A stretch of DNA of 64,000 nt from Thermogladius sp. (GTDB lineage: Archaea; Thermoproteota; Thermoprotei_A; Sulfolobales; Desulfurococcaceae): assembly GCA_022759365.1 (NCBI GenBank), contig JAEMPJ010000001.1, forward strand, positions 1 to 64,000. Reading direction: 5' to 3'. The notes below the pieces were generated by a model. The model was not told the DNA's origin. It made no database searches and was given only the letters and a program-made list of their open reading frames with translations. How positions within the stretch are numbered: the stretch's first letter is position 1; each line of letters starts with the position of its first letter. Below, piece after piece: positions 59,114 to 64,000 of the stretch. The translations under genes were made by a program, and so were the position numbers.

Positions 59114-59467
59114 GTGGAGGAGATTAGACATACAAGCACTATCATTTACATGACTCTACCAGATAACACGAAGGCTTTCATCAAGTACAAGGTTGAAGGG
59201 AACATTATGAAAATACTTGAAACCTACACTCCACCACAATACAGAGGCAGGGGGATAGCTGGGAGGCTGATGGAGTACGCTATTAACATGGCAAGAGAGA
59301 GGGGGTTGGTGATAGAGCCGGTGTGTAGCTATTCCGTATACTACTTTTTGAAAAACAGGGAGGCCCGGGGGGTCTTAGCCGAGCCTTTCAGGAGTATGAG
59401 CGATGAAGAGTTGAAACAGCTGTTCGAGAAGAGAGTGGAAGAGGAGAAGTCTAAAGAGGGTGGTTAG
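59114..59467 (+). CDS. GNAT-like N-acetyltransferase (YjdJ type)
   Basis: YTPPQYRGRGIAGRLMEYAINMARERGLVIEPVCSY. Confidence 0.88.
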   Translation: MEEIRHTSTIIYMTLPDNTKAFIKYKVEGNIMKILETYTPPQYRGRGIAGRLMEYAINMARERGLVIEPVCSYSVYYFLKNREARGVLAEPFRSMSDEELKQLFEKRVEEEKSKEGG

Positions 59468-59712
59468 TGGCTAGGGTCAAATACCTTTTGTGGCTCAGGG
59501 ATAGAATAGGAGTTGGAGAAGAGCATGTTGAATCCAAGACCTTAAGGGAGCTACTTGAAATCCTAGCGAGTAAACACAGTGAGTTGAAAGAGTTAGAGAG
59601 AAGGGGAGGCCTCGTAGTTCTGGTTAACGGTCTTGCCGTCAATCCCGGAAGAAACGTTGAGCTGAGTGATGAGGATGAAGTGGTATTACTCCCAGAAGTA
59701 TCTGGCGGCTAA
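59467..59712 (+). CDS. MoaD/ThiS-like ubiquitin-fold protein
   Basis: KYLLWLRDRIG...DEDEVVLLPEVSGG with C-terminal GG. Confidence 0.88.
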   Translation: MARVKYLLWLRDRIGVGEEHVESKTLRELLEILASKHSELKELERRGGLVVLVNGLAVNPGRNVELSDEDEVVLLPEVSGG

Positions 59713-60413
59713 CTACAGTGTTTGTACACGTCGTCTATCGCTCTCTGGAGGTCGAGAGGAGAGGAAAAGACTGCTCCGTCAACACGACTGCTCAACCAGG
59801 CACATTTTTCCTTTAACTCCAATGGCTCGATAAAGGGTTGGTTTAATTGCGTGAACACTTCCCTGCTCTTCTCGTAACCTATCAGCACGAATGGGTATAC
59901 TTTCACCCCTATCCTCCTCGCTATCTGTGCTACCTGCTCTAGCTTATCCGCAGTTTTCGAACCGTAGTGGATTACCATGATGTAGTCGGGGCGTTTCATC
60001 AGCCTCCGGGATATCTCCTCGACGGGGTAACGCAAGCTAACTACTAATCCGAGGTTCACACCCTCTATTTTGCTCTTCAGGAACGTAAGCGTCTCCTCAG
60101 AGTCTGCTTTCAGGTTTTCGCCAAAAACCGGTTTATCGCCTTTCAAAATCGTCACGCCTTTAATCCCGAACTCCCTAGCCGTCACTACAGCCGAGTAGGC
60201 GTGGAGCAAGTTGACATCCAGGAGTCTCAGGCTGACGTATACGCCCAGCCCATACCTCGTTCGAAGATAGGCGCCGGTGACTGCCGCAAGTAATGCTGGT
60301 CTCCCAGCCGGGTTTTCCGGCACAAACACATCGAAGCTCCTCTCTTTTAATTTCTCCGCTAATTTATCGATGGTTTTCCTTGAGAAAGCGGGCAATTCAA
60401 TTATAAACTCCAC
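59709..60413 (-). CDS. Methylenetetrahydrofolate reductase (MetF)-like TIM-barrel protein
   Basis: VPENPAGRPALLAAVTGAYL...VYVSLRLLDVNLLHAYSAVVTAREFGIKGVTILKGD. Confidence 0.7.
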   Translation of the reverse strand: MEFIIELPAFSRKTIDKLAEKLKERSFDVFVPENPAGRPALLAAVTGAYLRTRYGLGVYVSLRLLDVNLLHAYSAVVTAREFGIKGVTILKGDKPVFGENLKADSEETLTFLKSKIEGVNLGLVVSLRYPVEEISRRLMKRPDYIMVIHYGSKTADKLEQVAQIARRIGVKVYPFVLIGYEKSREVFTQLNQPFIEPLELKEKCAWLSSRVDGAVFSSPLDLQRAIDDVYKHCS

Positions 60414-60470
60414 TCCAACACACCTGAGGGTACAGCCTCCAGCTTAATTGTCATCTATGTTAGAGGAGAG

Positions 60471-60481
60471 TGTTTAAATAA
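60471..60481 (+). promoter_or_regulatory. A/T-rich TATA-like element in the divergent MetF-like/MtrH-like intergenic region
   Basis: gtttaaataaa in the 140-bp divergent spacer; exact orientation uncertain. Confidence 0.35.
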
Positions 60482-60553
60482 ATAGTCTAAATTCTCGAAT
60501 CAATGAAAAATGTTTCCCTTTTAAAATCGGTGGGGTTTACTAGTCTCTGAGAG

Positions 60554-61480
60554 GTGGTGGAGACGATCAAACTAGAATCAGCTAAATATCGTATAGGAGA
60601 CTATTGCATCGGCGGAGTCCTAGGCGAATGCCCCACATGGTTAGTTGGATCTATTTTCTACCTGGGTGACAAGCTCCTATCAAGCAGTGGTATTGATAAG
60701 ACAGCTGCTAGGCAAAAAATAGAGGAGGCTCTGAGCCAGTGCGACAAGTACGGGTTGGTGCTAGCCTTGGACGTGATTTTCCCATCGGAAAATCTCATTG
60801 AAGAAATATTGAGTTTCATAGGCGAGTTCAGCATACCTGTCTTCCTCGACTCCCCTGACCCCGGCATTAGGGCCAGAACGTATCTTAAAGCCTCCGAGCT
60901 TGGTTTAACAAAATACTCTATAGCGAACGGTTTATTCGTGGACAGCCCTCCCGAAGAGGTTGAGGCACTGAGAGAGAGCGGGATCGAGTCAGCTGTGTTA
61001 ATGGCCTTCGACCCGAAAGACCCCTACACCTCTATTGAGCCTGCCGCAAGGATGACGATAGTGAGGAAACTACTCGAAGGGGTGAAGGGGCTCGGGGTAA
61101 GAAACATCATGGTGGATACAGTAGTGCTAGACCCCTCCTCGATATACCTGAGCGGTGAAGCCGTTTACATGGTTAAAACAGAGCTTAAACTCCCTGTCGG
61201 TAGCGCACCAGCCAACGCTCTAGGCAATGTCACCAAAGAGAAGGTTGGGGTAGAAGCCATGGTCGGTGTCCACGGGGGGTCGGCCGCCTTCCTCAGGATG
61301 ATGGGGGCTGATTACATAATGTACGGCCCTATCTCCAGGGTGAAGTACGTTGCGCCGGTTGTCTCAACAATAGACAGCCTGCTCGGCTACGGGTTGAGGA
61401 GGACAGGTGTGAGAATCGAGGGCAAGCACCCGTATAAGACCCTGTTGAGGGAGCTCCAACAGTTCTTCACAAAGGGGTGA
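60554..61480 (+). CDS. MtrH-like pterin:corrinoid methyltransferase
   Basis: YRIGDYCIGGVLGECPTWLVGSIFYLGDKLL; GVHGGSAAFLRMMGADYIMYGPI. Confidence 0.88.
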   Translation: MVETIKLESAKYRIGDYCIGGVLGECPTWLVGSIFYLGDKLLSSSGIDKTAARQKIEEALSQCDKYGLVLALDVIFPSENLIEEILSFIGEFSIPVFLDSPDPGIRARTYLKASELGLTKYSIANGLFVDSPPEEVEALRESGIESAVLMAFDPKDPYTSIEPAARMTIVRKLLEGVKGLGVRNIMVDTVVLDPSSIYLSGEAVYMVKTELKLPVGSAPANALGNVTKEKVGVEAMVGVHGGSAAFLRMMGADYIMYGPISRVKYVAPVVSTIDSLLGYGLRRTGVRIEGKHPYKTLLRELQQFFTKG

Positions 61481-63023
61481 GGCGGAGGCTGTCGACCCAT
61501 ATATCCATGTAGCCGGGTGTCTTGGGAAGCTCCACCGTCTTTATCTTCTCCAATATCGTCTTGGAGTTCAACAGGTACTCCCTATCTAGGAGGGCTACTC
61601 TTAGCCCGGGGAGGACGAGGTTCCCCGTAGCTACTACAATGTCTTTCTCGACGCTAGGGATCAAGCCCAGGGTCATAGCGTCCTCTACATCAAGGTTTAC
61701 ACCGAAGTTGCCGGCTATGATCAGCCCTTTCAAGGAGTCTTTCGAGACACCGGCCTCCCTCATGAGGATTCTAACACCCGATTTAACGGCGGCGATGGCT
61801 TTTTGAATATTCCTGACATCAACCTGGGAGACGTAGAGGTCTCTAGACTCGTCTATATACAGGATCTTCATGCCGTTGAGAGTCTTGTATCCTCTAACAA
61901 TCCTCCCTCCCTCGTCGATGAAACCCCCTCTCCTCAAGTCCGCGAGTATGGAGATGAGAGCCGGGCCCAATATACCGGTTGGGGCTACAAAGTAGCTGTA
62001 CTGGAAAACTGGGTTCTCATCCTTTACCCCTGTCATCCTAGCTCTGTAGACGCCGCCCTGGAATACCGTCGAGCCTCTTGAAATACCTGTCTCGAACGCT
62101 GGTCCACTGGGTGTAGTAGTCGCGTACACCTCCTCGTCTTTTACGAGGAAGATTTCCGTGTTTGTGCCCAAGTCTATGAGTAGATACGGTTTGTCTATAT
62201 TCAGTTGAAACGAGGCTATTAGATCAGCATATGCGTCCCCGCCGAGGAACCCAGCTATCATTGGCGCCCCTATAGCAAGTCTGTCCCCCACCTTGTCGAC
62301 GACTACCTCGTTTGTGGCAGGCTTAAACGGGTACTCAGCCAACCCCTTCAAGTCTAGGTTGAAAAAGAAGGACTCCATTACGCTGTTGCCGGCGAGCAGG
62401 ATCAAGTGGGTTGAGTGGTTGGCCGATATCTCATAGACTATTGACCTAAGCCTGGAGTATATTTCATCCCTAGCCCGCTTGTCTTCGAGGGCCCTCGCTA
62501 ACCTGGATATGATGTCGAGGCCGAAGTCCGATAGAGGCGTGAACACGCTGTCCTCATACAAGACGTCGCCCCCCGGGGTTACAACTTGGTAAGCGATTTT
62601 AGTCGTGCCTAAATCTACCAGTAGTATCCTCGCGTCCTCGCCGACATTGATTTTGTGGCCAAACAACTCCTGGACGCCCCCGCCTTGAGCGCTGATTAAA
62701 GGGTTGATCCTCCTCGGGTTAACTATTAGCGTGCTCAACCTAACAGGCTTGGGTAACCCTGGTGAGAGCTCTACTCTTAAATCACCCAGGATTGTGGTTT
62801 GGCATGCCAGCCTCAATGAACCAGTGTAGCCTAGAAGCCTCTCGTACTTGGTGGGGGGTGTTACAGGGCCTTCCCTAATTTTAACTCTGCAGAGCCCGCA
62901 GATGCCTTGCCCGCCGCATGGTAGCGATATAAGGTTGTGCCTAGCCAGCAGGGCCCCGAGGTTATCGCCTACGCGAGCTGTGAGGACAAGCCTGTCCCCG
63001 ACCAATACTTTTACTTCACTCAT
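61467..63023 (-). CDS. RACo-type corrinoid activation protein (2Fe-2S ferredoxin domain plus ASKHA domain)
   Basis: LPCGGQGICGLCRVKI...LACQT; LVDLGTTKIAYQVV; LLIDLGTNTEIFL. Confidence 0.9.
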   Translation of the reverse strand: MSEVKVLVGDRLVLTARVGDNLGALLARHNLISLPCGGQGICGLCRVKIREGPVTPPTKYERLLGYTGSLRLACQTTILGDLRVELSPGLPKPVRLSTLIVNPRRINPLISAQGGGVQELFGHKINVGEDARILLVDLGTTKIAYQVVTPGGDVLYEDSVFTPLSDFGLDIISRLARALEDKRARDEIYSRLRSIVYEISANHSTHLILLAGNSVMESFFFNLDLKGLAEYPFKPATNEVVVDKVGDRLAIGAPMIAGFLGGDAYADLIASFQLNIDKPYLLIDLGTNTEIFLVKDEEVYATTTPSGPAFETGISRGSTVFQGGVYRARMTGVKDENPVFQYSYFVAPTGILGPALISILADLRRGGFIDEGGRIVRGYKTLNGMKILYIDESRDLYVSQVDVRNIQKAIAAVKSGVRILMREAGVSKDSLKGLIIAGNFGVNLDVEDAMTLGLIPSVEKDIVVATGNLVLPGLRVALLDREYLLNSKTILEKIKTVELPKTPGYMDIWVDSLRLTPL

Positions 63024-63672
63024 CCCGGATACCCATTAACCTCTCGACTAGTTTAACGGCTTCTATAGCGTTGGGGGCCCACCCATCCGCCCCGATCTCG
63101 CGAGCGAATTCCGGTGTGGTCGCCGCCCCTCCTATTATTATCTTTAAGCCCTTCCTCAACCCCTTTCTCTCCAGCTCTTCTATCACAGTCTTCATATACC
63201 TAGCTGTCGTAGTCAGGAGGGCGCTCATGCCAACTATATCCGGGTGGTATTTCTCAACGGCCTCCACGAATTTCTCAGCCGGTACGTCCACACCTAGGTC
63301 TATTACCTCGTGCCCCGCGGCCTGCAACATTATGGCTACTAGCGTCTTACCTATATCGTGGACATCCCCTTTAACCGTCCCGATCACGATTCTGGCTCTC
63401 CGTGTTGTCTTCAAGCGTGAAGCCTCCTCTTTCAACCTTGGTTCAAGTATCTTCATCGCCTCCTTGAAGATGCTGGCCGCTTCTATGAGCTCAGCTATGA
63501 AATAGTCGCCGTTTTCGTAAAGTCTCCCGATCTCCTCCATAGCTTTACTCAGTGATCCAAGCACTATCTCGGTGGCGGGCACGCCGGATTCTATAGCCGC
63601 TTTCACGCTCTCCAGGACGCAGTTCCTTTCAAGGTTTACAAGGCATATCCTCGCTTTCTCAACAGCCAACAA
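63016..63672 (-). CDS. Corrinoid (B12)-binding methyltransferase protein
   Basis: VIGTVKGDVHDIGKTLVAIMLQAAGHEVIDLGVDVPAEKFVEAV; GGAATTPEFAREIGADGWAPNA. Confidence 0.93.
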   Translation of the reverse strand: MLAVEKARICLVNLERNCVLESVKAAIESGVPATEIVLGSLSKAMEEIGRLYENGDYFIAELIEAASIFKEAMKILEPRLKEEASRLKTTRRARIVIGTVKGDVHDIGKTLVAIMLQAAGHEVIDLGVDVPAEKFVEAVEKYHPDIVGMSALLTTTARYMKTVIEELERKGLRKGLKIIIGGAATTPEFAREIGADGWAPNAIEAVKLVERLMGIRDE

Positions 63673-63749
63673 GCTTCCCCGTTAGCCGTGAACCATATTG
63701 TTAATTACACCACTTGAGAAATATCTATTAAGCATTAAGGGGTGTTTTA

Positions 63750-64000
63750 ATGAAGACGAGCCACGTGGGTAGCTTCCCACTAGAGTATACCATGGAGAAC
63801 GTGAGGCGTGTCGCCTTAGACCTACGTGAAATAGGTTTGGACGTACCACCGTACCCCCAGTTAAGGAATTTCGTCGACATCTACATGGAGCCCCTGGTAA
63901 AGAGAAATCTTGTATCCGCCAAGAATGGGGAGTATCATATTACGACCTGGCCCACCAACGTAGACTTCTTCTTCGAGGGCAACATCGTTGAAGCCGAGTT
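63750..64000 (+). CDS. MetE-core methionine synthase-like protein (truncated by window end)
   Basis: Manual translation MKTSHVGSFPLEYTMENVRRVALDLREIGLDVPPYPQLRNFVDIYMEPLV... Confidence 0.7.
   Translation, partial: MKTSHVGSFPLEYTMENVRRVALDLREIGLDVPPYPQLRNFVDIYMEPLVKRNLVSAKNGEYHITTWPTNVDFFFEGNIVEAE

Follow-up and report, generated by a model that had tools for sequence, protein, structure and literature searches.

The window, a stretch of 64,000 nt from the genome of Thermogladius sp. (1.15 Mb, 99.5% complete), a non-methanogenic hyperthermophilic archaeon, ends in five contiguous genes that form a candidate split, corrinoid-dependent methionine synthase. The features of the cluster, in window coordinates, are as follows.

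59709–60413, − strand: divergent protein of 234 aa with the fold of methylenetetrahydrofolate reductase (MTHFR, MetF), from predicted fold and motifs; proposed methylene-pterin reductase
60414–60553: divergent intergenic region of 140 bp between the MetF-like and MtrH-like genes; no Rfam family
60554–61480, + strand: MtrH-family methyltransferase, predicted methyl-pterin:corrinoid protein (PF02007, E = 4e-34)
61467–63023, − strand: reductive activase of the RACo/RamA type, 2Fe-2S plus ASKHA domain (PF14574, PF17651, Fer2)
63016–63672, − strand: corrinoid (B12-binding) protein of the MtgC/MtbC/MetH-module type (PF02310, PF02607, DVHDIG)
63673–63749: divergent intergenic region of 77 bp between the corrinoid-protein and core-MetE genes; no Rfam family
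63750–64000, + strand: start of the gene for core-MetE, a predicted methionine synthase (whole gene contig 63750–64712, 320 aa, P0001), from predicted fold and zinc ligands

The five reading frames lie at the positions given in an earlier note on this DNA, with the overlaps that it described, of 14 nt between the MtrH and RACo genes (3′ to 3′) and 8 nt between the RACo and corrinoid-protein genes (same strand). The gene order is the same in a single-contig genome of 1.36 Mb from the same genus (G092, locus L036), so the arrangement is not an artefact of assembly. The cluster recurs, rearranged, across many other genera; in the gene-order comparison that the earlier note had asked for, clustering is retained through many orders and orientations in the loci read.

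The window edge truncates the gene at 63750, which is complete on contig C2 (63750–64712; L002:7751–8713). The closest named relatives of its product are proteins from Thermogladius sp. metagenome-assembled genomes, with 93% and 64% identity over the protein. Sequence models match it weakly. The Pfam model Meth_synt_2 gives E = 4e-4, the MesA-type NCBIfam model (NF002119/PRK00957) 66.5 bits against a cut-off of 258, and NF004712, which recognises the M. acetivorans protein and is used here as a proxy for MesC, 61 bits against a cut-off of 387. The AlphaFold2 model is of high confidence (predicted local distance difference test, pLDDT, 96.2), and its best Foldseek matches in the PDB are all MetE or MesD, headed by 1xpg (E = 2e-13). 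H195, C197 and E220 are invariant in 35 of 35 homologues and C283 is present in 34; in an alignment with T. maritima MetE the four fall on its zinc ligands. Ser8, Gln37 and Asp155 are likewise invariant in the 35 sequences, and were compared with the homocysteine contacts Ser433, Glu/Gln484 and Asp599 of MetE. Asp155 is clearly aligned with Asp599, and Gln37 with Glu/Gln484 only to within one column. MesA and MesC carry Gln at the Glu484 position (PMC7857596). As modelled, the product is a MetE catalytic core lacking the folate domain with all its zinc ligands in place, and is a predicted methionine synthase. Among the MtrH-type clusters, that at L072 (G105) has the most divergent core-MetE, with Asp in place of Cys283, and lacks an adjacent RACo gene; this core-MetE is possibly altered or decaying.

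The MtrH-like protein is matched in the PDB by MtrH (8z9u, E = 3e-31) and MtgA (6sj8, E = 7e-31), and residues D72, D98, N124, D187, D192 and N220 are invariant across 17 homologues. It falls below the cut-off of TIGR01114, the equivalog model of the MtrH subunit of the Mtr complex (102 bits, cut-off 271). The activase has all of the domains expected of RACo/RamA proteins, that is the 2Fe-2S domain (Fer2, E = 7e-7) and the middle (Raco_middle, PF17651, E = 1e-16) and C-terminal (RACo_C_ter, PF14574, E = 8e-48) domains of RACo. It has no Pfam match to the RACo_linker domain, and matches the RACo structure 3zyy with E = 1e-43. The corrinoid protein comprises a B12-binding domain (PF02310, E = 3e-31) and a B12-binding_2 cap domain (PF02607, E = 8e-15), its DVHDIG sequence fits the DxHxxG motif, and its PDB match is 1y80 (E = 2e-46). 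It scores 186 bits with the NCBIfam MtgC model, under the cut-off of 370, and 153 bits with TIGR02082 (MetH).

The 234-aa MetF-like protein has no match over cut-off in Pfam (PF02219 included) or NCBIfam and no single-sequence match over cut-off in the PDB; a profile search gave one weak match to an MTHFR (E = 0.14). Yet the AlphaFold2 model, built from 18 relatives (pLDDT 90.8), has the MTHFR fold, with the top 40 Foldseek matches in the PDB all MTHFR (best E = 6e-9, TMq ∼0.73). Among the relatives E6 is invariant and D93, within the sequence RGDKP, nearly so. We take these to be the motif positions of the catalytic E28 and D120 of E. coli MetF. At loci L048, L050 and L071 the place of the MetF-like gene is occupied by a MetV–MetF fusion. 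A scan of one of these fusions gave clear matches to PF02219 and PF12225, and the replacement lends independent support to the MTHFR identity. The model thus points to a divergent MTHFR-fold protein with both catalytic acidic residues, and we propose that it is a methylene-pterin reductase. Each of the identities put forward in the earlier note is therefore borne out: MtrH-like protein, activase and corrinoid protein by their Pfam domains, the MetF-like protein by fold and acidic residues in place of a Pfam match, and the MetE-core-like start at 63750 by the four zinc ligands of the full gene.

The earlier note had held that a complete MetH or CODH/ACS (carbon monoxide dehydrogenase/acetyl-CoA synthase) would speak against its scheme. 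The genome has no match to PF01717 of MetE at E ≤ 1e-3 and no CdhD/CdhE (PF03599), and the homocysteine domain of MetH is absent both from it and from all of the class genomes (0/229). The cluster is thus the only recognisable methionine synthase of the genome. Canonical MetF (PF02219) was also not found. The genome encodes AhcY, the S-adenosylhomocysteine hydrolase, which can supply homocysteine, and a β-RFAP synthase just under its cut-off (109.8 bits, cut-off 113.5), which suggests a methanopterin-type pterin.

The distribution of the genes was analysed in 229 genomes of the class, with strong core-MetE matches in 57 and none in the other 172. MtrH is present in 48 of the 57 core-MetE genomes and 1 of the 172 others, whereas canonical MetE is found in 4 and 122 respectively. 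The earlier note had named a lack of phylogenetic co-occurrence as counting against its scheme; the co-occurrence is very strong. CdhD/CdhE is confined to the core-MetE set (16/57); 41 of the 57, the Thermogladius sp. genome and 40 others, have no PF03599. Where the core-MetE gene lies beside a corrinoid protein and/or activase gene, CODH/ACS is present in 2 of 35 genomes (the G002 locus being counted as adjacent on the activase alone), and where it stands alone in 12 of 16 (Fisher p = 8.5e-7). This would be expected if core-MetE takes the methyl group from whichever corrinoid protein is supplied, either its own or that of the Wood–Ljungdahl pathway. The core-MetE family spans the phylum. About 50 of the 229 genomes have neither core-MetE nor MetE, including G070, G071 and G095–G097, which belong to the same family and are assembled in a single or few contigs; organisms of this kind are auxotrophs or users of some other route.

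The analysis shows gene content, folds, active-site residues, conservation, co-occurrence and the lack of any other synthase that can be recognised; from these we infer the individual enzymatic reactions, the transfer direction, the type of pterin and the protein partners. The MTHFR-fold protein would reduce methylene-tetrahydropterin, probably of the methanopterin type, to methyl-pterin. With it the MtrH-family enzyme would methylate the cob(I)amide carried by the small corrinoid protein. Core-MetE, with homocysteine (possibly provided by S-adenosylhomocysteine hydrolase) bound as a zinc thiolate, would take the methyl group from the methyl-corrinoid protein to form methionine. The repair enzyme would be the RACo-type ATPase, which has a 2Fe-2S domain and would return corrinoid oxidised to Co(II) to the Co(I) state. 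This is the relay that the earlier note had outlined, and domains, folds, the lack of another synthase and co-occurrence all support it. We consider it highly probable that the cluster is a split, corrinoid-dependent methionine synthase working in this way.

Several observations count against this conclusion. The co-occurrence counts, though spanning many genera and families, are not corrected for shared ancestry. Four genomes (G123, G130, G001 and G227) have a solitary core-MetE without detected CODH/ACS, two of them with MetE, and some relatives are without any known synthase, so auxotrophy is possible in the family. A genome search found no CobS, so cobamide is presumably imported by Thermogladius sp. 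The single MtrH of the genome is that of the cluster, MtrH being the only Mtr subunit searched (MtrA was not). We know of no enzyme of this core-MetE family that has been assayed.

The reactions of MtgA and MtrH are reversible, and the cluster might thus run in the catabolic direction, with methyl groups from an outside substrate passing through the corrinoid protein and MtrH to the MetF-like protein for oxidation, and core-MetE as a side branch. MttB-type or UroD-type enzymes are found in sister cassettes, and such a role for corrinoid–MtrH pairs was weighed by Loh et al. 2021 (PMC7886697). However, no substrate-specific methyltransferase adjoins the MtrH-type clusters read, and core-MetE is both the component that stays constant and the one methionine synthase recognisable in the genome; we regard the catabolic direction as improbable. 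A marginally less probable alternative is that core-MetE methylates a thiol other than homocysteine, the cluster making another methylated product. The MetE/UroD superfamily contains coenzyme M methyltransferases, and the Foldseek search with core-MetE also returns UroD and a methyltransferase of M. mazei (4ay7, E = 4e-9). These nevertheless stand behind MetE and MesD among the matches, the proposed homocysteine ligands Ser8, Gln37 and Asp155 are invariant, the near-exclusion between core-MetE and MetE fits a methionine synthase, and the homocysteine-making AhcY is encoded. That the protein is the already described MesC, fed by the CODH/ACS corrinoid iron-sulfur protein, is very improbable, as despite the same size and zinc ligands, tentatively the Gln of MesA/MesC and a weak NF004712 match, it lies far below that cut-off, CdhD/CdhE is absent here and in 40 other core-bearing genomes, and MesC in Price et al. 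(phmmer from Q8TUL3) is reported only from Wood–Ljungdahl archaea plus MSBL-1.

The core-MetE cassette of Zestosphaera (L060 and L105) and its relatives contains a gene for an MttB-family methyltransferase; the gene has no in-frame stops, so the enzyme is probably not pyrrolysine-dependent. In other lineages the cassette contains a UroD-family protein. On the core-MetE tree the donor labels are clustered, yet each requires several changes (MtrH 5, MttB 4, UroD 2 and CODH-only 6), showing that the donor side has been swapped more than once. Judged from gene content, the charging enzyme appears to vary by lineage (MtrH, MttB-type or UroD-type) while core-MetE is constant. A wider proposal, to which we give even chances, is that core-MetE of the Thermoproteota is an undescribed core methionine synthase family and the common outlet for corrinoid donors that are pterin-fed (MtrH plus MetF-like), quaternary-amine-fed (MttB-type), UroD-type-fed or of CODH/ACS, some lineages making the methyl group of methionine from environmental methyl compounds and bypassing the pterin.

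Three further arrangements were seen. In G005 a distant core-MetE homologue directly overlaps a CdhD/CdhE-family gene (L145:2282–4667), and a second core-MetE of the same genome belongs to an MttB-type cassette (L073). In G123, a genome with MetE as well as a solitary core-MetE, an MtrH-family gene lies beside a distant MetF-like gene with no corrinoid protein (L146:8070–10130). At L198, L199 and L200 a gene of another core-MetE subfamily is located between the corrinoid-protein and mtrH genes; this is an independent version of the mtrH–corrinoid–core-MetE linkage.

MetH performs the same overall chemistry as that proposed for the relay, and its B12 module is resembled by the corrinoid protein (TIGR02082, above). 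The cluster differs in using separate genes and a homocysteine site of the MetE fold, the MetH homocysteine domain being absent from the class. MesA–MesD were defined by Price et al. 2021, who predicted that MesC uses the corrinoid protein of CODH/ACS (PMC7857596). The published definition of MesC is a phmmer score of ≥38 bits to Q8TUL3, and the MesC lineages given include no Thermoproteota (PMC7857596). Core-MetE shares with MesA, MesB and MesC (PMC7857596; Deobald et al. 2020, PMC7005905) a MetE core without the folate domain, the zinc ligands and a corrinoid protein as the expected methyl donor. It lies under the curated cut-offs for MesA and MesC (66 against 258 and 61 against 387 bits), and its family is mainly without CODH/ACS, having its own corrinoid protein, activase, MtrH and MetF-like gene; filing it as MesA or MesC was accordingly rejected. 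By curated cut-off the family is placed outside the MesA and MesC models, as a new relative of the known core methionine synthases MesA–MesD.

Loh et al. 2021 noted that a metE homologue of Ca. Methanomethylicus mesodigestum has mtrH and a corrinoid-protein gene next to it, and gave an anabolic role as one possibility for a related corrinoid–MtrH pair of Bathy-6 (PMC7886697). The same three components are together in our cluster, and the arrangement of Ca. M. mesodigestum is probably that of L198–L200. Those loci differ from the cluster in that the core-MetE of L199 is of the MesA type, passing that cut-off with 265 bits, and no activase or MetF-like gene was detected. The MtgA/MtgB/MtgC glycine betaine system and the marine MtgC/MtgD split methionine synthase share modular transfer via a small corrinoid protein and RamA-type activation, MtgA being a relative of MtrH, and the marine version also makes methionine from separate subunits (PMC12478193). 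It is described as distinct from core-MetE, and its hosts are aerobic bacteria (PNAS 2025, PMC12478193). In openly searchable papers (subscription literature being outside the scope) no description was found of a core-MetE family with a MetF-like gene and activase in non-methanogens lacking CODH/ACS, nor anything relevant on methionine synthase in Staphylothermus, Desulfurococc- or Thermogladius.

An Rfam scan found no riboswitch or other family in either divergent intergenic region; both divergent gene pairs may share control, and no regulatory motif was identified. A small MoaD/ThiS-family protein with a GG end is encoded at window 59467–59712 (+ strand), overlapping the MetF-like gene by 4 nt. 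Three other genera have a homologue in the vicinity of the cluster (L039, L041 and L045), and common ABC ATPases aside this is the sole non-module neighbour in at least 3 of 15 loci. HcyS of Wolinella is a sulfur carrier in homocysteine synthesis, and by analogy the MoaD/ThiS-family protein might have such a function.

The relay would fill a gap in the pathway, as many hyperthermophilic archaea without MetE and MetH could use it to close the methionine/S-adenosylmethionine cycle. Comparative genomics indicates that a core methionine synthase can own its corrinoid donor, so that the question of the in vivo donor for core-MetE enzymes becomes testable with five proteins from a hyperthermophile. 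That donor cassettes are exchanged while the acceptor stays constant is relevant to the origin of MetH and MetE.

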